This document shows, in pieces, positions 14,522-60,428 of a stretch of DNA of 64,000 bases. The first letter of the stretch is position 1. Every line of letters starts with the position of its first letter. This DNA comes from Owenia fusiformis (lineage: Eukaryota; Annelida; Polychaeta; Sabellida; Oweniidae). The notes under the pieces were generated by a model, which was not told where the DNA came from, did not search any database, and worked only from the letters and a program-made list of their open reading frames with translations. The position numbers and the translations under genes are program-made. The stretch lies in NCBI GenBank assembly GCA_903813345.2, contig CAIIXF020000001.1:38285366-38349365 (forward strand), read 5' to 3'.

Positions 14522-15410
14522 GGTAACAGGACAACTCATCCCTAAGACAACTCATCCCAAGACAACTCATCCCTAAGACATCTCATCCCAAGACAACTCT
14601 TCCCCAGACATCTCATCCAAAGACAACTCATCCCAAGACATCTCATCCCAAGACAGCTCATCCCCAAGACAACTCTTCCCGACTTGAAATATAATTTAAT
14701 TTATACAATTAATTTCAACTTTTGAAAGAATATTTGAAACATCTTTAGAGATTTTAACAGTTAGCACACTGTGTTTGGCCATGGAATATCTTTTGAGATC
14801 ATCAAGGGTGTCAGATTAGGATTAATGCAATAAGAATGTATTATCCGGGGTATTATCAGAATAATTCTCCCAGATTAATTCAGTCTTTGTTTTAAAATAT
14901 TTTGTTTAATTCCAGTATGTCATATTTGGCTTATTCTTAATTAAGATTTCCAATTTTAAACTTTCAGAATCATGATGATTGAATTTTGAAATTATGTCTT
15001 TGACTTTTATCTTCAATTCTATATTCTCAAATATATTGAGAATTTGAGAATAACCCAGAAATAATAAAAACACTGATAGTTAAAAGAAGAAAACTTTCAA
15101 GTGCTTTTTCAAGATGCTAAAAATTATCAATATTAAGATTGTGTGAATAATCAAATATCACTTTGTAATTGTAAAAATTAAAAAGGGATATATATGATAT
15201 AGAGGACAGATTAAATAATTTATCAATTATACTAGTGGGATGAGTTGTCTTGGGATGAGATGTCTTTGGGATGAGTTGTCTTGGGATGAGATGTCTTGGG
15301 ATGAGATGTCTTGGGATGAGTTGTCTTAGGGATGACTTGTCTTGGGATGAGTTGTCTTAGGGGTGACTTGTCTTGGGATGAGTTGTCTTGGGATGAGTTG
15401 TCTAGAAACC
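14522..15410. mobile_element. Foldback element with tandem-repeat arms, 8-bp TSD (copy A)
   Basis: GACTAGTT flanks the element exactly on both sides (14514-14521 and 15411-15418). The ends are GGTAACAGGACAACTC at the left and GAGTTGTCTAGAAACC at the right. Each arm is an array of about 15-16-bp units (AAGACAACTCATCCC and variants) in opposite orientation, around an AT-rich core. The 8-bp TSD is typical of hAT elements. A sister element with the same plan and nearly the same length lies at 58224-59109. No transposase is present. Confidence 0.8.
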
Positions 15411-31800: not shown

Positions 31801-33370
31801 CAAAAAAATTAAAATATATGATTTAAAGCACATATACTAATTTAAAAACATACGGGATTGTTTGAATGCGTATTTATTAATATATATGCTTTAAATCATA
31901 TATTTTATTTTTTTAAATTATATAATTCAACTGATCTGCTCCGGTTACGTTCCCAGCTCCGGTTACGTTCCTAAGTAATATTTTTAAAACTTTTTTTTTA
32001 ATTAAACAAATCAGAGTCGTGTGAATCAGAAATAACAGAATTATTCAATAGTATAAGGACTATTCTGTACTTCTTTCAAAAGTCTATACTTAAATGTTGT
32101 AAAAAGTTATAATCGAAAAACCATCTTTCGGAGTAAAGTCCGACTGCGCCGATTTTAATAACTTCGTACTTGATCAGAACTGGGTTCCAACAGAATTCCT
32201 ACAAACTCATGAATGAAATACCCATTGCATGGAATACTTACTTTTGTCAAAATCAAAGTAGAACTCTAGTTAAAAAATATATTGTGCTAAATTATTGCCA
32301 TTTCTTAGTAAAATGTCGTTCTCCGGTACGTTGCCAAAATTATTCGATGGTACCCCGTGGTTAAGTGGTAGAGTAGGTCACTACTGGTGCACCATTTGGG
32401 TTGATATTACCGATTTTACATTTTAGAAATGTATGGTTTGATTTATTGTAAAATGCAGAGTTGTGTTGTCATCATTTCTACCCCTTTTTATTATAAAGAG
32501 GTATTACCATTTCTGGTCTTAGTTTACATTGCCCCCCATCCTTTTTTCACATCCCTTGTTTTCATTAACACCTCTCTCAAATACGATCTTGAACATCAAC
32601 GCCATCGACAACCTTTTGGAGGCGTTTATGTATTGTATAATATGGACATTATTAATAATGATGCGCATTCCGATGCGCCAATATATCTTTAATATATGTT
32701 TTTGTACCATATATCAAACCCACAAAGATTTACCTGACGTATGTGTATATATTATATTTGGTTCATAAAAATGCACTGCATTTGAAGTTGTAGATGATAC
32801 ATCGTATGTTGCCTCAACTGATCCGTGGACTATGTAGTAACAAGACAACATATCTTCATGCGTCCTTTTTGTTATGTATTGGAATGCCTTGATCTTTTCA
32901 TAAGTGATAACGTAACTAAGTATTTCTTTGACGTGGTCAAGATCTTTATGAATAAGTTTTAAACCATCAACAACGCCTCTCATTGTCCCTACAATATGTT
33001 TACTTATTGGACGGTCATCCGACTCATTGAGCAAAATCTCCGCGTTTTGTTCCATAATTTTTCTTGCGGCTCCAGTGATGATTACCGCTCCCCTCGACGA
33101 AAATAGCCTCTTGTTAAAGACAGGAGGTAACTCTCCATGTTGATTGGTTTTCTCCTCATGTTTGGCTAAAGACTGCTCTCTCTCCCTTGTTTTTTGAGTT
33201 TCTTCATTGAACTTTTTGCGATCTTGTAATTTTCTGATTAAATTGAACATGTTTTCTGATTTGATGTTTCCTGTTGTTTCCGAATTTAGGATATTTGTAA
33301 CGTTGTTGGAAAATTCTCCATTCTTAGTTGATTTGGGTTTGCCTTGATTGGTCGATTTAAACGATATCAT
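19824..33370 (-). CDS. Protein with two tandem cyclic-nucleotide-binding folds, 883 residues, 15 exons
   Basis: Minus-strand exons in order: 33370-32734, 30039-29934, 28186-28045, 27928-27859, 26192-26112, 25961-25865, 25452-25240, 24984-24830, 24553-24441, 23276-23121, 22666-22539, 21952-21703, 20611-20483, 20318-20237, 20116-19824. All join in phase through GT-AG introns (884 codons with stop). Residues 41-80 are a charged helix. Fold A (about 150-250) shows SCYYIVHGSVEATYDV, then SGEYLGLV and CEFLRIDR. Fold B (about 296-390) shows FPPNKLVLEQGDLCEYVFFL, then GDFFGEECLLEKDCKSIC. These are the beta-roll and phosphate-binding cassette of CAP/PKA-type domains. Both lack the usual Arg-Ala pair of the cassette, so nucleotide binding is doubtful or altered. 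Residues about 655-700 look coiled-coil. The last 100 residues are Ser/Thr/Arg-rich. It resembles CNBD2-type sperm proteins in layout, but I cannot name the orthologue with certainty. The first ATG follows an in-frame TGA at 33413-33415. Confidence 0.85.
21058..21130 (+). repeat. Dispersed short repeat, copy 1
   Basis: AAGGAGGATTGGCTCCCAGA and the following 50 bp resemble, in inverse orientation, the sequence at about 46190-46260 (TCTGGGAGCAAATCCTCCTT). Both continue with a related CGATATT.T..AAAACAA stretch. The copy lies in an intron of the minus-strand gene. Its nature is unknown. Confidence 0.4.
21493..21631. repeat. Palindrome with CCTACGG core (intronic)
   Basis: The left arm ATCCTATAGTCGGTTCAGG then ATATTGGGATTATCC pairs with GGATAATCCCAATAT then CCTGAACCTCATATAGGAT. 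Inner words GGCCAATATAATATAT and CAGATATATTATATTGGCC also pair. The turn reads CCTCGGGACCTACGGCCCTC. Confidence 0.75.
22079..22163. mobile_element. Mini-MITE, 85 bp, 9-bp TSD (copy 1)
   Basis: It starts TACCCTGCGTTCAGAGTC and ends GCAAAGGGTA, with 6-bp TIRs. The flanks are ATGGAAAAC (22070-22078) and ATTGAAAAC (22164-22172), a 9-bp duplication with one mismatch. An internal GCGAATGCGAATGC doubling makes it slightly longer than its relatives at 45901-45976 and 53818-53894. It is intronic in the cyclic-nucleotide-binding gene. Confidence 0.8.
22907..22998. repeat. Perfect 30-bp hairpin (intronic)
   Basis: The arms 22907-22936 and 22969-22998 are exact reverse complements (TCTCCTCTTTC...GGACAAC), with a 32-nt loop. 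Exact arms imply recent origin or active homogenisation. No TSD was seen. Confidence 0.85.
23408..24322. mobile_element. Tc1/mariner-type MITE, TA TSD, CAGGGTGTTCAAAA ends
   Basis: The left TA|CAGGGTGTTCAAAAAAAT and the right TTTTTTTGAACACCCTG|TA are mirror ends with TA on both sides (23406-23407 and 24323-24324). The arms extend for roughly 400 bp and include GTTGTACTA and AGGGACTTTACAG with their inverses. No transposase is present. It lies between exons 9 and 10 of the cyclic-nucleotide-binding gene. Confidence 0.8.
26220..26621. mobile_element. Foldback MITE of AAGTAATT words, TA flanks
   Basis: The ends CACTCTTAAAAAATA and TTTTTTAGAGTG are mirrored, each beside TA (26218-26219 and 26622-26623). 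The body is dominated by TTAAGTAATT-like words and their complements, so it is largely self-complementary. It is intronic, just upstream of exon 5 of the minus-strand gene. Confidence 0.7.
28216..29743. mobile_element. Dispersed long-hairpin repeat X, copy interrupted by another element
   Basis: The ends are related to those of the copies at 37509-38955 and 44176-44900: AAAGG, then TTTCTCTTAAACCAGTC at the left, and GATCGATACCGATCCTTT at the right. The interior landmarks GGTCTCTCAATATTGTAA and ATAATATTGAGAGGTCTAAG form the inner hairpin. A TA-flanked element (28405-29251) has inserted into the left half. Confidence 0.65.
28405..29251. mobile_element. Foldback TA-type element with CGAGGGTATATCATAAAG ends
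   Basis: The ends CGAGGGTATATCATAAAG and CTTTATGATATACTCTCG are mirrored and directly flanked by TA (28403-28404 and 29252-29253). The arms are about 400 bp and cover most of the element (for example GGCACCCGGGGCAAATAAAA against its inverse near 29058). CGAGGG ends plus a TA target fit a Tc1/mariner MITE. It is nested in repeat X within intron 2 of the minus-strand gene. Confidence 0.75.
30099..30200. repeat. Imperfect hairpin, about 28-bp arms (intronic)
   Basis: AGCCTTGCACAAGTCGGT at the left pairs with ACCGACTTGCGCAAGGCT at the right. A second stretch, TTTTTACTTA against TAAGTAAAAG, extends the stem. It lies 60 bp upstream of the second coding exon on the minus strand. Confidence 0.7.
31376..32359. 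mobile_element. Long foldback element, CACGGGGTACC ends, 5-bp GTTAA TSD
   Basis: GTTAA lies outside both ends (31371-31375 and 32360-32364). The ends are CACGGGGTACCATCGAATAA and its inverse. The arms are about 480 bp and nearly identical; they carry mirrored 64-67-codon frames that are by-products of the palindrome. The loop near 31850-31880 is short. If the target is only TTAA, a piggyBac-type origin is possible. If it is 5 bp, CAC termini recall Transib. It sits in intron 1 of the cyclic-nucleotide-binding gene. Confidence 0.8.
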
Positions 33371-33902
33371 TTTCCTGAATTGCTTTTTAAAAACCGACGC
33401 TTGTTGGATCGATCATCCGTTGGAGCTAGGATGTGCTACTTAGTTGCTTAGTAGCAGAGCCCCCAGACTCATTAATTAATGAGATTATTGTTATTTATAC
33501 CCATGAGCGCCCCAAGATATCATATGTGTCTCCGTCGTACTATTCTTTAAGTGAAGTGTGGAAACAACAGCCCATCGATAAAAATATACAATATATCCCA
33601 GGTTGCCAACGCTGGCAATGATTTTTGATGCACAATGTCTCGAAGCATGCAAAGATTCGATACATTCATCAATATTCTATGATGTTATCCCGCTTTCTTT
33701 ATATGTTTCTTACCTCTGGGATTACATGACGTCCCTGTAAACAAACCAACTCTGATATCGATCAGGAAGATGAGTGGTATAAGAACTTGAGTTAAAACTT
33801 GGAATGTCATGTTGAGTCATCAACAATGAAGTGTCGCCATTTATCCAATGTCTACCATCATTAGGGAAATAGATACCATTGATTATATTGACCTTCGATG
33901 TA
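33371..33902. promoter_or_regulatory. Upstream region of the cyclic-nucleotide-binding gene
   Basis: About 530 bp lie between the start codon (minus strand) and the MITE at 33903. No TATA box, CCAAT box or CpG cluster is convincing. The promoter and 5' UTR must lie here or beyond the MITE. Confidence 0.3.
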
Positions 33903-34533
33903 TGTTACGCGGTAAACACGATACAAAAATATGTCATATTCCGCAACGAATATGGCATATTCACTTGCGGTGTATGACAGATTCACCTGCGGTATATGGC
34001 ATACACACTAACCAATGAGAACGTGATACGGAAGTACGCAATTGTCAATTGCATCGATCGAATGAACAAGTAAAACGTTATAAATTATTAGAATGATAAC
34101 TGAATCAACAGTACTGTGTATCGAATATATTAATTTAGCAGAAGTATCAGTCACCAATCTCGCGTAATAAACTTACTCAATCAATCCAGGATTCATATAT
34201 TAGTACTCGACGCACTAACTATATTGGTAATCCAGCGTAGTTTTACATTAAGAGTCGATTCTCGCAACCAATCAAATCAAGGCTTTCTGTATCACGTTTT
34301 CACCTGCGATATATGTCATATTCACCTGCGGTATATGGCATATTCCGCAAGTGAGTATGACATATTCCGCAAGTGAGTATCGGGTATTCACTGAAATCAA
34401 TGTATCGCATATTCACTGCGGAATATGGCATACTCGCCTGCGGAATATGCCATATACCGCAGGTGAGTATGGCATATTCACCCGTATCACAAATACCGCG
34501 CAACCATGGATGTATGCCATATACCGCGTAACA
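33903..34533. mobile_element. MITE, TGTTACGCGGTA ends, 5-bp TSD (copy 1)
   Basis: ATGTA flanks both ends (33898-33902 and 34534-34538). The TIR TGTTACGCGGTA is mirrored by TACCGCGTAACA. Near each end, about 20-bp units of the type GCGGTATATGGCATATTC alternate in direct and inverted orientation. The core (ACTGTGTATCGAATATATTA and onward) is shared with the 590-bp copy at 57614-58203. No coding capacity. Confidence 0.85.
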
Positions 34534-51357: not shown

Positions 51358-52555
51358 GGGTGTCTACAAAACTAAGACCTAAGACCTACAAAACTAAGAC
51401 CCCCCACGTAATAAAACTAAGACCCTGTTATAAAACTAAGACCCCCGACGTAATAAAACTAAGACCCTGTTATAAAACTAAGACCCCCCACGTAATAAAA
51501 CTAAGACCCTGTTATAAAACTAAGACCCCCCACGTAATAAAACTAAGACTCTGTTATAAAACTAAGACCCCCCACGTAATAAAACTAAGACCCTGTTATA
51601 AAACTAAGACCCCCCACGTAACAGGGTCTTAGTTTTATTACGTGGGGTCTTAGTTTTATAACAGGGTCTTAGTTTTATTACGCGGGGGTTCTTAGTTTTA
51701 TAACAGGGTCTTAGTTTTATAACGTGGGGGGTCTTAGTTTTATAACGTGGGGGGTCTTAGTTTTATAACGTGGGGGGTCTTAGTTTTATAACATGGTCTT
51801 AGTTTTATTACGTGGGGGGTCTTAGTTGTATAACAGGGTCTTAGTTTTATTACGTGGGGGGTCTTAGTTTTATAACAGGGTCTTAGTTTTATTACGTGGG
51901 GGGTCTTAGTTGTATAACAGGGTCTTAGTTTTATTACGTGGGGGGTCTTAGTTTTATAACATGGTCTTAGTTTTATTACGTGGGGGGTCTTAGTTTTATA
52001 ACATGGTCTTAGTTTTATTACGTGGGGGGTCTTAGTTTTATTACGTGGGGGGTCTTAGTTGTATAACAGGGTCTTAGTTTTATTACGTGGGGGGTCTTAG
52101 TTTTATAACATGGTCTTAGTTTTATTACGTGGGGGGTCTTAGTTGTATAACAGGGTCTTAGTTTTATTACGTGGGGGGTCTTAGTTTTATAACAGGGTCT
52201 TAGTTTTATTACGTGGGGGGTCTTAGTTTTATAACAGGGTCTTAGTTTTATTACGTGGGGGGTCTTAGTTTTATAACAGGGTCTTAGTTTTATAACGTGG
52301 GGGTCTTAGTTTTATAACAGGGTCTTAGTTTTATTACGTGGGGGGTCTTAGTTTTATAACATGGTCTTAGTTTTATTACGTGGGGGGTCTTAGTTGTATA
52401 ACAGGGTCTTAGTTTTATTACGTGGGGGGTCTTAGTTTTATAACAGGGTCTTAGTTTTATTACGTGGGGGGTCTTAGTTTTATAACAGGGTCTTAGTTTT
52501 ATTACGTGGGGGGTCTTAGTTTTGTAGGTCTTAGGTCTTAGTTTTGTAGACACCC
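51358..52555. mobile_element. Foldback element made of short tandem repeats, 10-bp TSD
   Basis: ATTTCAAATA is duplicated exactly (51348-51357 and 52556-52565). The ends are GGGTGTCTACAAAACTAAG and its inverse. Both arms are arrays of AAAACTAAGACC units that alternate between CCCCACGTAAT and CTGTTAT tails. The left arm is about 260 bp and the right about 930 bp, and they meet near 51620. A 9-10-bp TSD suggests a MULE-type mover. The 90- and 95-codon frames are repeat translations. It ends about 58 bp before a possible 5' UTR exon of the HypX-like gene. Confidence 0.85.
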
Positions 52556-52873: not shown

Positions 52874-55800
52874 ATGTTTGGAATTATGCAGAGAAGTGCG
52901 AACTGGGCCCTCAGGAGACACCAGGCTGTTGGTCGAGTGATACAATGTCAGATAAAAAGAAAATACCTGGTTGACAAACTGAAATATCAGACAAAAAAGA
53001 GCCAAGTTGCTCTGGTGGATTCTCTTCAAAAACAAAAAGGTACAGTTTGTAGATTCATTACCTGTCCAATGGAATATGGGGAAGCTATGTTAAGATTGTA
53101 TGTTTTCTGTTACTCTGTAGTGTTTTTATTTATTACAAGACGTCCATCCTTTCATCTGTCCTATTTTCAGAAGCTTCTTATGAAAAAGCTAATCCGCGAA
53201 TCTACCATTTTTATTACATTTTTCGAAACGCTACATTTATGTTCATAATGAAAACCTTGTCTCGTTGAGATTGAAAATGGTCGATTTTTTCGGAGGTAGG
53301 CAAACAGACCACTGCTCAAGAAGGCATTCTGTATATGGTCGCTCGTTTCAAAATGGCCACTTCTTGTTAAATATTGCAATGTTTAATACAAATCTAAACT
53401 CAAATACAAGTGGGCAGATTTGGTTCGAACGTGACGGTGATGCAATAGGGACACAGAGCAGAACAGAACCCTGCTATAAGAATTTGTGAGATACTGTTAG
53501 TTCTCAAAATGACTGCTGAATTCAAAATTGCCTTTTTACTTTATGAAAAATATATTTTTGATTAACATAATTGTCAGATTTGGTTGAGATTTTATGTGCG
53601 AATGCCTTATTGGCATCAGACTGTGGCGAAGCAGAAATGCTGAATTCAAATTGGTCTTCATTTCTCAGGGAAATTGTGATATTACTCATAACACAAATGT
53701 CAGTTAGCAGATCTGGCCCTATATGCTAATTTCTTGTAGTCATAAGGCCTCTGTTCAAGAAAGAATTTAATATATGGCGTTACATCACATCATGGGTGTA
53801 GAATTTGCCAAATGGAGTACCCTGCTCGCAGAGTCTAGTTATAACGACGAAGCTCTCTTTAAAGAAGCAAAGTCGAACAAATGCATTTAGGGTTCAAAAG
53901 GAGACATAATTCCTCTACTATTTCCTTATAATTTCTATCATGTACCTTGATGTCGAAAATGACTAGGGATTTAATAAAATATATTTTCTTTGGTGGGATT
54001 TGCACATACATGTGCATGCTGTCCACATGATTGTACTCGTCTCATTATAAATATTTACGTAACGCTATTGTTGTGTTGTATTATATGTTATAGCAATATA
54101 AAATATGGACATTCAAAAGTCATATTTCTCAAACGTACGTTCGATGGTAAAACGGTGAATGACATGATAAATAAATGGTTACACTCTTGGAAAAACTCAA
54201 ATGTTCGTTATTGCCCAGCCTCCCTTATACACATTTATACACATCAGTCATATGATAAAATTTTGGAATGGGTCATTTAGTCCAGTAAGTAAAGCAATTG
54301 TTGCCTTTCACTTCTTTCAGATGAGCCGTTTTTGAGTGCTCCACAGATGCAACAGATTGGAAAATGGAACGCCGATTCCGAGATGGTTAGCCTTATACGT
54401 TCTACAAAGTGTCTGCTCCTTTGCAATTCATACAACACACTTTCTTTGGCAGTTGCTACTGAACTGAGGAGTTTCGGAGCTGAAGTTGATGTCAAAGTCA
54501 TTCATAATGAGCATGACTTTACTATTGCTGATGAAGGAGATTTTGACATTATAATATGCCCATTTCTGACAAAAAGAGTTCCAGAGAGGATTTGGAGTAA
54601 TAAAGAGCGACCATGTTTGATTGTGCACCCAGGAATCCCAGGAGATCGGGGTCCCGCATCAATAGAGTTTGCAATTAAGAATAAGGCACTTAATTGGGGA
54701 GTTACAGTAAGTGATCCGCACCATTTTATCGCACCTTTTCAAAATGTCGTATTTTCATCGACTTGTGCTGAAGGGCGAGCGTCTATTTGGGCGGGTGAAA
54801 TCTTGTCAACAAGCAGATAAGTGCCAAGATCTAATACTGGGTAAATTACTTGGCAGCCGTTTTGAATTTTTTTGTTACAAAGTGTGATTTTTATCACTGA
54901 AGTTTTGAACAATGGTTTACTCATAACATGTTAGCGGCTTCAAGTTGGTATAGTATGAATGGCTTCATGTCAAATCTTGTCCGTTAGTGAACAACCCCCC
55001 CCCCCAACATTCTGATTTTTCTCCCACTAGGTTTTACAAGCAGACGAGGACTTTGACAGAGGTTCTATTTGGGCATACGGTATGTTCCCTATATCTGCAA
55101 AGAACACCACAAAGACCGAAATGTATGTGTCTGAAGTCACAGAGTGCGCTGTGGATACAGTACTGAGAGCGGTAGCAAGATTTAAACTAGGAGATTCACC
55201 AAAACCTTGGCAGTATGGTGATGATAATATTAAAGGAAATCTCCAGACGAAGATAAAAAAGGCAGATAGAAGGATTGACTGGAACCAACATGCTAGCGAT
55301 GTTGCTCGCCATATACGAATGTTTGACACACAACCTGGGGCACATGGGTTTTTGAAGGTAAGACCTCCGCTTTAATCCAGTGTTAATCAGAGTTTTTATT
55401 GGAAAACATAATCAAGTGAGGAACAGGGATTTCTATTGAAATTCATCTAAAAAAAACATTGCAATTCACGACACAATACAATTAAATATTTACAATACAA
55501 TACAACACTAACAATATAATATATAACACACTACTACACTACACTAAACTACACTACATTAAAGCATAATCTAATAACAATCCATTAATAATTTCAGGGG
55601 ATTGATGGAGAGATTAGATTTTTTGGGGCCCAAGAAACGCAACCACTTTTGTACTGTGGCGATAAAATGCGTGATCTGCTAACATCTGCTGAACCAGGCG
55701 AGCCAATAGGCCGAAAACATAACTCCATTCTCATAAAGTGTGGAGAGGATTCATCATTGTGGGTTTCTCATTTGAAGGTAAGGTATAAGTTATCATTGCT

Positions 55801-58800
55801 GTTTAACGACTTGCAGTATATTGGTCTGTAATTCTCGCCATTGTATCTTGTTTCTTTCAACTGTAATTGTACCTGTACAATATAAATTGCTTCATTACGA
55901 AGATTTTCCGTCAAAATGCTTGGAAATGCTTGTGTAAGTCTATAAACAATGTAAAACCTTTTAAAACAAAAACAAGTGCGTTTAATAGGTATCTGATTAG
56001 ACCTTTGTAAAGCAATACAATACCATATAGTGGGTGTCATATGGCACTATATGTTGGGGTGAAATAACCAAAAGTGACCCATGTAGGTATTGTTTTGTAG
56101 ATTACTTCATTGTCTATTCATTTTTACTTGTATACACTCGTCAAGAAGACACGAAGGGAAAAGTGAAATTGAAAAAAATGCAAAATAGGAGGTGAAATTG
56201 ATATTGATTTGTAATGATAATCCATTAGGATGTAACGATACTACTAAAAACACACGAATCAACTTTATTTACAACTGTTTTCATATTTAGTAATTTTAAG
56301 TGATTTTTTAAGTCAGCACAATTTTATTAGTTCTAGATTTTTGTTTTGTCCTTCAAAATAAAACTTTGCAATAAATAGCACTTGCTCTTAGACAATGAGG
56401 ATTTCAGCAAGGGTGCATTGAGATATGCTCTAGGCTATAGACTTAACGTGTCGATACCATATCCCTAGACTATAATAGATTCTGATGATATCCTCATGTA
56501 AAGTTAATAGTACATATCTCCATGTCCTTGCCGAGATTCACATTTTCACAGAACAATGAGTTATTGCAATTTTTTATTTGGAACGACGAACATGTGAACA
56601 ATAAAATTGTGTATAACGCTAATATGTTTTCAAAGTATCACTAAACGTGAAAAGAGCTGTAAGTAAAGATCCTTCGGTGAGCAATTGTATAATAAGTTAC
56701 TCTGCCAAAAACTATTGTAATTCAATACTATCGATGACAACAGTGATTTTTGAATAAAAAAAGCATTTTAAGCTCAGCATTACCACTTTTTTACCACAAT
56801 TATTTTCAATATAATCACCACACCTAAATGAACTATCATTACCAATTATTATAAAATTTACTTCGTATTTTGTATTTTTCCTGCAATTATTTGTATTTTT
56901 TTTGAAATTGAATTTAACACGCTTTCTGTCAATTTCTGGCTCGTTACACTAAGCTCGTTAGTTAGTCATTCCCCTGGGACGCCCTTCCCTAAGGTCATTT
57001 CCTGTTCATTGTTTCAGTCAAACAAAATCCCAGGAGTAAAGAATATAAAGTTACCAGCAACGATGGTGTACACAAAACCACTGGCTGAAATGAACACACT
57101 TGACTACGAGGATGTTTGGGTAGAGATGCGAGATAACGTCGCATACGTCCATTTTGATTTCTATAACGGCGCCATGGACGTGTCACAGTGTCAACGCCTC
57201 CAACACATGCTCAAAAACATCAAACTGCAGGACAACATAGATGTTGTGGTCCTTATGGGCGGAAAACGGTTCTTCTCAACTGGTAACTTTTTACATCAAA
57301 TATCTATTTATACAATGCATAAAATAAACTTGTCCATGTATCAAAACCGATTTAAACCTGCCTCCAGCTCGCTAAGTTTCCAGCCTATTGTCTCTCCTAC
57401 CAGATGACTTCAGACCAATATCATGGTAATATAAGATATACTTAAGTACTTCTAGCAGTCTGAGGGTGAGATAACTCGCCAATTTAAACTTTCCCCGGTT
57501 TAATGTAAAATTACATTGAAAATGGAAGCCCACGTGATAGAAATGCAAATCCAGTGAAATGTTCCAGACTGGGAAGAATTAATTTATTTTTTTCTGGGTA
57601 GATTCATCACTATTGTTACGCGGTAAACACGATCCGCAACGAATATGGCATATTCACTTGCGGTGTATGACAGATTCACCTGCGGTATATGGCATACACT
57701 CTAAACAATGAGAACGTGATACGGAAGTACGCAATTGTCAATTGCATCGATTGAACGAACAAGTAAAACGTTATACATTATTATAATGATTACTGAATCA
57801 TCGGTACTGTGTATCGAATATATTAACTTAGCAGAAGTATCAGCCACCAATCTCGCGTAATAAACTTACTCAATCAATCTAGGATTCATATATTAGTACT
57901 CAAAGCACTAACTATATTGGTAATCCAGCGTAGTTTTACATTTAGAGTCGATTCTCGCAACCAATTAAATCAAGGCTTTATATATGTCATATTCACCTGC
58001 GGTATATGGCATATTCCGCAAGTGAGTATGACATATTCCGCAGGTGAGTATCGGGTATTCACTGAAATCAATGTATCGCATATTCACTGCGGAATATCGC
58101 ATACTCACCTGCGGAATATGTCATATACCGCAGGTGAGTATGGCATATTCACCCGTATCACAAATACCGCGCACCATGAATGTATGCCATATACCGCGTA
58201 ACAACTATGGTAATATATTAAATGGTAACTGGTCAAGTCGTACCCAAGACAACTCGTACCCAAGTCAAGTCGTACCCAAGACAACTCGTACCCAAGTTTA
58301 TGTTTTGTTTTCAATCAAGTGTTGGAATGAGAATGGGTATACATGTAGATATACATATTTTAATTGTTACATACAGTTCAGAATAGTTTGAAGTATGTAG
58401 AAGAGTTTTTGGAAGAAATGTATTTAATTCTGTGACATTTTGAGCTTTGAAAAATTAAATGTCAATCTATTTTGACTATTATTTTATATTGGTCACAGAT
58501 TCAGGATGTTTGAAAGAAAAGACCTATGTTTATTCAATATATTCATAATCATTGTTCAAAATATTAGAGGTATTAAAATTTAGCAATAAAATATTCTAAA
58601 TAATATTATATTATTCATACATGATATAATACACTTCGTATACATGTGTTCAAATATAATCCAATTAAGTTCAAAATGGAATAGAATTTAACAGATTAAA
58701 CTTCCGTTATCAACTTCATCTAAATGCACTTAGCTAAATTAATTGTTTGATTCATTTGTAGATAAGTTACTGTCGTAATTATATTCATTTATATATATGT

Positions 58801-60332
58801 ATGACAAAAAAAAGAGAGAACAAGCCCTTCAAAGCACTTCTTTTATTTAAAAAAGGTGATCCAAGTTAAAACAAAATGCTTTGCTTAATCCATTCAGAAA
58901 AAATGTCTTCTTAATTCAGAAAAAATATTGAGGCTTATTTGATTCACATAACAACAATAAAACATTATTATACAGACTCAATTTGTTTTCCTAATATACA
59001 CCCATAATACTGAAAATAAACTTGGGTACGAGTTGTCTTGGGTACGAGTTGTCTTAGGTACGAGTTGTCTTGGGTACGAGTTGTCTTGGGTACGAGTTGA
59101 CTAGGAAGCTATTAAATAACTCAACTTCATTTACTTCAGAGTATAATGGACTATTTTCGATGTTTTAGTTGGATGACTAACGAAGAGTCGAAACTAAACC
59201 ATTATACTCTGAAGTAAATGAAGTTGAGTTATTTAAATAAATCATATTTTACTTTCATCATATTGTCGAATCTCATCTTAATAAGTATACAATCCCCATT
59301 TGATAGGAATTCACCTGAATGTGATCGAGCAGGCAGATGAGCCACACATCGAGTCATATGCCAACATAGAAGCAATAGATGATGTCATCAAAGAATATGT
59401 TCAAATGGAAGATAAACTAGTTATAGCTTGTCTTCAAGGAAACGCTGGTGCCGGAGGTTGTATGATGAGCGCAGCAGCAGATTATACTATAGCCCATAAG
59501 GTAGTATCGGAGTATTGTCACTATACTTTTTAAAATTCACTCAATGGTACACAATGACATTGCTTATGTCAATTGATTTCTTTAGATGAGCACGCGAGAT
59601 TTTTATCTCTTCCTTAAATTTAGTTCCGTACCCCAAATATTCGAATAAGTAGTCCTTTAGCCTATTTAGAGCGATGTAAATTCATCTCGTTAAACCATGG
59701 ACGTATACGACCATGGTTAAACATATCGTTTTGCTCCTATGTTTTAGTTAAGCCTGTGTATTTGTCATTTTAGTGCGTATCTTTGACGCCAACATACAAA
59801 AGCATGCACTTATATGGTTCTGAATATTGGACATACTTCCTACCCAGGAAAATCGGGAACGAAATGGCGCTTGATCTCACGTCTCGCACAGACTCAATAA
59901 TGGCCAGCGAGGCATACTCCATTGGCCTAGTTGACGTTCTACTCGGAAGGTAATTGTATTGTGAATATGAATTAAGAAGCAAATTGTATTCTATTCCAAA
60001 GGCCTCGTTTTTGTAGCGATTGTTCTATTTAAGAGATATCCAAAGACAAATTATGTATTCTTTATCACGACATGATTTATGTTCGTTGAAATACTGCATT
60101 TCTGCCAATATATTTCAGAAATGGTTATGAATTAAATGACAACATTCATGAAGCAGTCACTGGTATTTGGAACAGCTTTGACAGTAGACTTGTTCTAAAT
60201 TCGAAATCAAGGCGATCGGAAAAATGGTACGAAAATCTGGAGGAGCACAGGGCAGCTGAATTACGTCTAATGAAGCAATGCTTTTCGGATCCAGCTTACC
60301 ATTCTGCCCGCAGGGATTTTGTTTTTCATTAA
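52874..60332 (+). CDS. hypX: HypX/HoxX-like CO-forming enzyme (formyltransferase-crotonase fusion), 635 residues
   Basis: Exons 52874-53039, 54321-54706, 55031-55357, 55598-55777, 57018-57282, 59307-59500, 59774-59949 and 60119-60332 join in phase through seven GT-AG introns. A TAG at 52859-52861 precedes the ATG in frame. Residues 1-55 are a basic presequence (no Asp/Glu before residue 34), suggesting mitochondria. Residues 84-300 match the 10-formyl-THF transferase domain of HypX: ICPFLTKRVPERIW, VHPGIPGDRGPAS (157-169), NWGVTVLQADEDFDRGSIWA. Residues about 375-600 are the crotonase domain: GIHLNVIE, GNAGAGG (486-492), LYGSEYWTYFLPRKIG (519-534), GLVDVLLG. The C-terminus HSARRDFVFH also fits. 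Bacterial HypX moves formyl from 10-formyl-THF to CoA and releases CO from formyl-CoA for [NiFe]-hydrogenase assembly. Animals have no such hydrogenase, so the role here is inferred only as CO or formyl-CoA metabolism. Confidence 0.92.
53818..53894. mobile_element. Mini-MITE, 77 bp, 9-bp TSD (copy 3)
   Basis: CAAATGGAG (53809-53817) and CAAAAGGAG (53895-53903) form a 9-bp duplication with one mismatch. The body GCAGAGTCTAGTTA..ACGACGAAGCTCTCTT matches the other two copies. It lies in intron 1 of the HypX-like gene. Confidence 0.8.
57614..58203. mobile_element. MITE, TGTTACGCGGTA ends, 5-bp TSD (copy 2)
   Basis: ACTAT is duplicated exactly (57609-57613 and 58204-58208). It is the sister of the 33903-34533 element, with few differences in the core and 40 bp less near the ends. 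It lies in intron 5 of the HypX-like gene. The 94- to 115-codon frames here come from the repeat. Confidence 0.85.
58224..59109. mobile_element. Foldback element with tandem-repeat arms, 8-bp TSD (copy B)
   Basis: TATTAAAT flanks both ends (58216-58223 and 59110-59117). The arms are arrays of AAGACAACTCGTACCC-type units in opposite orientation. The ends are GGTAACTGGTCAAGTC and GAGTTGACTAGGAAGC. Total length (886 bp) is almost that of copy A (889 bp), yet the repeat unit differs (GTACCC for ATCCC). It lies in intron 5 of the HypX-like gene, directly after the MITE. Confidence 0.8.
59112..59236. repeat. Perfect 38-bp hairpin (intronic)
   Basis: The arms 59112-59149 and 59199-59236 are exact reverse complements (TTAAATAACTC...TATAATGG), around a 49-nt loop. 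The left arm overlaps the right TSD of the foldback element, so that element inserted at the edge of this hairpin or the two moved together. Confidence 0.85.
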
Positions 60333-60422: not shown

Positions 60423-60428
60423 AATAAA
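60423..60428 (+). terminator. Candidate polyadenylation signal of the HypX-like gene
   Basis: The first AATAAA after the stop codon lies 91 bp downstream of it and would give a short 3' UTR. This is a motif match only. Confidence 0.4.

Follow-up and report, generated by a model that had tools for sequence, protein, structure and literature searches.

The 64,000-nucleotide stretch of Owenia fusiformis DNA analysed here (the window) carries an intron-containing gene for HypX, an enzyme known from hydrogenase maturation in bacteria. We read its product as a stand-alone, hydrogenase-independent, folate-dependent carbon monoxide (CO) synthase that is probably mitochondrial, and we put the probability of this reading at roughly 0.57. 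In the proposed mechanism, the N-terminal domain (H158, D164 and D193) would pass the formyl group of 10-formyltetrahydrofolate (10-formyl-THF) to bound coenzyme A (CoA), the CoA arm would swing into the crotonase domain, and Y514 together with E523 would decarbonylate the formyl-CoA, so that CO is released and CoA regenerated. Import would bring the protein into mitochondria, which form 10-formyl-THF from serine and formate, and the CO would be used as a gas or signal and not as a hydrogenase ligand. HypX is described as making formyl-CoA and then CO under oxic conditions (PMC12134894), which suits an animal.

The gene lies on the forward strand at 52874-60332 and consists of eight exons that splice to 1908 nucleotides, a single open frame of 635 amino acids plus stop, with GT..AG boundaries in seven of seven introns. 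The eight in-phase exons proposed in a first-pass annotation of this DNA are thereby borne out, and the five signature motifs that it quoted for HypX are all present in the spliced product. Exon 1 (52874..53039) supplies the ATG and a basic N-terminal leader, a candidate mitochondrial presequence with no bacterial counterpart. Exon 2 (54321..54706) encodes the formyltransferase N domain, including the catalytic residues H158 and D164 (VHPGIPGDRGP), exon 3 (55031..55357) contributes D193, the start of the formyltransferase C domain and the CoA-site positions T284 and Q285, and exon 4 (55598..55777) completes that domain. The linker and the start of the crotonase domain (NGAM, N403) are on exon 5 (57018..57282), the crotonase core (IHLNVIE, GNAGAGG) on exon 6 (59307..59500), the decarbonylase site with Y514 and E523 (TYKSMHLYGSEYWTYFLPR) on exon 7 (59774..59949), and the C-terminal tail and stop on exon 8 (60119..60332). 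Splicing rejoins WGVT|VLQA at the exon 2/3 junction and STG|IHLN at the 5/6 junction, both motifs that are conserved in bacteria. A polyadenylation signal on the same strand (AATAAA, 60423..60428) begins at the 91st base past the stop.

Three bacterial HypX queries run against the raw window each recovered exons 2, 3, 5, 6 and 7 with E values no higher than 1e-9. The same queries gave exon 8 less strongly (3e-5, 0.17, missed by one), and exon 4 is the weakest to be matched (0.04-0.07, missed by one). Exon 1 was matched by none of the three; an ATG, an open frame and a donor site are all that define its boundaries.

The product is HypX and not a single-domain cousin, because its PDB matches to HypX stand far ahead of those to formyltransferases and hydratases. 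Five HypX sequences match residues 85-633 with E values from 3e-95 to 7e-93, Aquifex HypX being the best. After them come methionyl-tRNA formyltransferase (3.2e-10) and enoyl-CoA hydratase (6.6e-9). The Pfam domains follow one another on one chain as Formyl_trans_N, Formyl_trans_C and ECH_1. Together with the match over residues 85-633, this confirms the full order of formyltransferase then crotonase claimed in the first pass, which had also asked if the closest relatives might be ordinary methionyl-tRNA formyltransferase or crotonase; they are HypX. A lone formyltransferase or a lone crotonase is ruled out by PDB E values of 3e-10 or weaker, against 3e-95 for HypX. Methionyl-tRNA formyltransferase, 10-formyl-THF dehydrogenase and enoyl-CoA hydratase have single domains in common with the window HypX, each spanning one part of it at that weaker level. 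Among the NCBIfam matches listed (25 of 61 families) there is no HypX model, and all 25 fall far under their cut-offs.

Aquifex aeolicus HypX (HoxX; PDB 6J0P) has the same domain order, the same five catalytic residues and, in Aquifex numbering, the same L56 in the folate loop, N306 in the CoA site and A392 in the channel. In the window HypX, by comparison, the stretch from the catalytic Tyr to the catalytic Glu is one residue shorter and the N-terminus about 80 residues longer, the gene has seven introns, and no hyp genes lie nearby. No report of HypX in eukaryotes or animals was found in the open-licence literature, a search whose reach did not extend to protein databases, where automatic annotations may exist; what it turned up was the crystal paper and work on the bacterium Chromobacterium violaceum.

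Comparison with bacteria draws on a genome scan that found at least 484 relatives, of which the best 80 were kept, and on a wider set of 140 bacterial rows. The latter are 166 loci less 23 re-fetches of loci already counted and three fragments (L104, L109 and L145), with some near-duplicate pairs left in, such as L032/L111 (95% identical) and L017/L019 (97%). In its proposal for the active sites, the crystal paper assigns formyl transfer to H74, D80 and D109 and decarbonylation to Y416 and E426 (Aquifex numbering), and it places a Ser in formyltransferases at the position of D80 (PMC6802093). All five are kept in the window HypX as H158, D164, D193, Y514 and E523, with the Aquifex numbering mapped through L050, an Aquifex genome bin. 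The same columns in the 140 rows hold H in 140, D in 139, D in 140, Y in 135 and E in 140.

The tether of the CoA 3'-phosphate, S194/Q195/N306, reads T/Q/N in the window HypX, the first two positions being variable among bacterial HypX. Besides S194 to T, K59 is replaced by R and Y108 by F, and Q195 stays Q; several of these vary among bacteria and are little informative. The CoA 5'-diphosphate residues R9, Q15, R131 and R542 are not kept, and a quadruple mutant of these residues is described as retaining CoA binding (PMC6802093). As a separate observation, five of the 140 rows, the Bacteroidota HypX L027, L045, L047, L058 and L080, have Thr in place of the catalytic Tyr, with hyp genes nearby; that Tyr is termed perfectly conserved in the crystal paper (PMC6802093).

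The window holds no hyp genes: 17 hyp and hydrogenase queries gave a best E of 0.95. To our knowledge, [NiFe]-hydrogenase does not occur in animals, and the host genome presumably lacks one. HypX also exists in bacteria without hydrogenase. When any match at E 1e-5 within the fetched stretch is counted as a hyp neighbour, with flanks that range from almost nothing to about 8 kb, 79 of the 140 bacterial loci have hyp or hydrogenase genes and 61 have none. Forty whole genomes with a HypX free of hyp neighbours were searched, and in 18 of them neither HypD (PF01924) nor a [NiFe] large subunit scoring above the cut-off (PF00374) was found. These include Peribacillus huizhouensis, Marinomonas transparens, Marinimicrobium agarilyticum, four Lysobacter and seven Pseudomonas, and one of the 18 (G008) has a sub-cut-off PF00374 match of 19.7 bits. 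The remaining 22 carry HypD elsewhere in the genome, and HypD is found in six of six control genomes with hyp neighbours. A further 19 genomes, taken from those with HypX in the second-set scans, were tested for HypD only: four have hyp neighbours and HypD, and nine of the other 15 are without HypD. Pooled, 27 of 55 genomes without hyp neighbours lack HypD, some being metagenome bins in which absence is weaker. The hydrogenase-free bacterial HypX (Peribacillus, Marinimicrobium, Lysobacter, Pseudomonas and others) resemble the window HypX in having no hydrogenase genes nearby and, in many cases, a shorter Tyr-Glu loop. They differ in being bacterial and intronless, in that some adjoin MHYT genes, and in sharing at best about 39-40% identity with it.

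In the 89-sequence tree, the main hydrogenase-linked clade (bootstrap 100) leaves out the window HypX, which also lacks the MGNLYGSE- and YGFDPSYH-like motifs of that clade; some hydrogenase-side HypX likewise fall outside it. It is highly improbable that the window HypX matures a host [NiFe]-hydrogenase or similar enzyme in the classical manner. Such a role would accord with its homology and with the 79 loci that have hyp or hydrogenase genes, some of them among its nearest by identity, but it sits poorly with the window free of hyp genes, the position outside the main clade and a host group in which we know of no such hydrogenase. By tblastn, the best identity to bacterial HypX is 39% (among the best 80 of at least 484 relatives); over the trimmed columns of the 140 rows it is 40.5%. 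Given that level of identity and the seven introns, recent transfer from a sampled bacterium is unlikely. An ancient transfer and the retention of an old gene are both candidate origins. The viral contigs searched contained no relative. The short Tyr-Glu loop is found in 35 of 51 unlinked, eight of 10 MHYT-side and 22 of 79 hydrogenase-side rows. It was considered as a marker of hydrogenase-free HypX and was reduced to a leaning, since the 22 hydrogenase-side rows share it.

The bacterial neighbourhoods suggest what a HypX without hydrogenase might be for. A search for shared neighbours at 38 HypX loci without hyp genes returned, besides HypX itself, a single mixed cluster that extended to three lineages, whose members, where checked, are MHYT proteins. 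HypX has an MHYT protein next to it at 10 of 61 loci that lack hyp neighbours and at none of the 79 that have them (Fisher p 1.6e-4). The rows are related to one another, and from L089 on the loci came from searches with HypX queries of MHYT-side genomes, so that the 10 in 61 cannot be taken as a random share. In the first set by itself, assembled before MHYT had come to attention, the figures are 6/44 versus 0/44 (p 0.026). One second-set scan covered 299 genomes and added nothing new, and 51 of the 61 unlinked loci have no MHYT match in the fetched stretch.

In Marinimicrobium (L033), an MHYT domain alone lies 21 bases upstream of HypX; in Peribacillus (L009), an MHYT-PAS-GGDEF-EAL protein lies 55 bases downstream; in a Methylococcaceae bin (L023), an MHYT histidine kinase is one gene away; and at L084 the MHYT and HypX genes face each other. 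L032, L055, L111, L127, L128 and L143 are further MHYT-side loci without hyp genes, and the ten spread over about five branches. All MHYT matches of the genomes G006, G009, G826 and G1357 are at the HypX site. HypD is missing from seven of the 10 MHYT-side genomes and present in G006, G036 and G1357. G036, a Streptomyces, has two HypX genes, L146 on a hydrogenase contig and L126 beside MHYT. CoxC was demonstrated to sense CO with its MHYT domain, by way of copper (PMC11347149), in a text that does not mention HypX. HypX and MHYT at loci without hyp genes are a possible pair of CO maker and CO sensor, and stand-alone HypX in these bacteria may make CO as a signal. A link to folate is seen as well: HypX is fused to FolD in a Chloroflexi bin (L014:580-3246), and FolD lies just upstream of HypX in Methylotetracoccus (L046:7005-7967), which fits a supply of 10-formyl-THF to HypX, FolD having a part in the synthesis of that cofactor. 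A different fusion, to a hemerythrin domain, is found in Methylomonas (L037:7932-10160).

The predicted location comes from the two ends of the protein. Seven of the first 33 residues are basic and none is acidic, and residues 7-24 form an amphipathic stretch. Among 201 control ATG frames from the same window, six reach the charge of this leader and none reaches both the charge and the helical moment. The C-terminus, ...RDFVFH, is not an SKL-type peroxisomal signal. Because of the basic amphipathic leader and this C-terminus, location leans toward mitochondria and away from peroxisomes, and the composition makes mitochondrial import of the window HypX probable.

Formyl-CoA is a product of alpha-oxidation, and the first-pass annotation had offered two roles, a folate-linked CO source and a use of peroxisomal formyl-CoA. 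The first fits the HypX match, the conserved active sites and the hydrogenase-free bacterial HypX, some of them beside MHYT. The second is weakened by the C-terminus, the mitochondrial-looking N-terminus and the intact 10-formyl-THF site. Given the lack of an SKL-type ending, the basic leader and the intact folate-domain residues, we consider it very improbable that the enzyme works in peroxisomes on formyl-CoA from alpha-oxidation.

Several observations weigh against a mitochondrial CO synthase. The window HypX departs from the bacteria at sites that vary little or not at all among the 140 rows: T441 replaces an N and L98 a Q that are each present in 140 of 140, T513 occupies a position that is otherwise always H or Y, T511 replaces an N found in 135 of 140, and V217 an R found in 115 of 140. 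Beside the decarbonylase tyrosine, TPTY replaces NPHY and differs from all 88 aligned bacterial rows. These substitutions at near-invariant sites could mean altered chemistry. The branch of the window HypX is long (1.5 substitutions per site in the 89-sequence tree), a 141-row FastTree puts it among unlinked gammaproteobacterial HypX with a support of only 0.22, and its nearest rows by identity include MHYT-side as well as hydrogenase-side HypX. The targeting call is a simple test of charge and helix. The parallel in signalling is an indirect one, given that the window has no MHYT match and that we know of no MHYT sensors in animals.

Because of the unusual residues (T441, L98 and TPTY), the main rival is an enzyme that stops at or acts on formyl-CoA. 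It would be a 10-formyl-THF:CoA formyltransferase or a formyl-CoA hydrolase, serving one-carbon overflow and yielding formate, not CO. We regard this as unlikely: the departures from residues otherwise invariant in 140 of 140 rows, and from all 88 at TPTY, speak for it, but Y514 and E523 are kept, GSEYWTY is intact, and the equivalents of the two residues were needed when Ralstonia HypX was mutated, as told in PMC6802093. The long branch is also in keeping with a decaying or misassembled gene without function. Against this stand 635 open codons, seven of seven canonical introns and five kept catalytic residues, which leave it a very slim prospect.

In animals, the enzyme recognised as making CO is heme oxygenase. 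If a folate-dependent CO synthase is the correct reading, HypX would be a second animal source, one that draws on one-carbon metabolism and may be linked to mitochondria. The CO of siphonophore floats has its carbon derived from serine, and we know of no identified enzyme that makes it. Accounts of these floats have the gas produced by gas-gland cells (PMC6820529; PMC3916360), and the reference list of the former includes Wittenberg 1960, on where the CO comes from, and Wittenberg and others 1962, on gland folates. HypX would be a named candidate for the float enzyme, and siphonophores would be the clearest physiological test; the main text of a siphonophore genome paper (PMC13327316) mentions neither HypX nor carbon monoxide. 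The bacterial HypX-MHYT pairing suggests in turn that HypX-made CO serves as a signal. Taken at its widest, the proposal is a tentative one that we hold with some doubt: that animals have a dedicated CO synthase which is mitochondrial, runs on folate and is unrelated to heme oxygenase, that this enzyme accounts for the CO derived from serine and folate in the gas glands of siphonophores, and that in other animals it is a regulated source of messenger CO, matching the maker and sensor of the bacterial HypX-MHYT system.

The rest of the window holds little that can be named. No Rfam family matches it at the gathering threshold, and its other reading frames give only a retroelement RNase H fragment at 146-574 (Pfam RT_RNaseH_2, E 1.2e-21) and one weak match. 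The latter is a 232-residue open frame on the reverse strand (32714-33412), perhaps part of another gene, that matches PDB 3c5p at E 0.0044 and that by eye we take to resemble a cyclic-nucleotide-binding domain. The scarcity of other recognisable genes, the retroelement fragment and the long introns are in keeping with an animal genome, though no proof of one. A 42-base minisatellite at 51390-52523 reverses its orientation near 51620 and stops about 350 bases short of the start codon. A 22-base unit (ATATGACAGATTCACCTGCGGT and alike) is abundant at 33950-34481 and at 57643-58126, the latter inside intron 5. Minisatellites of 15-16 bases form two pairs of opposite orientation, 58232-58297 with 59021-59099 (intron 5) and 14530-14680 with 15236-15403, spaced about 0.6-0.7 kb apart within each pair, as if bounding one kind of mobile element.

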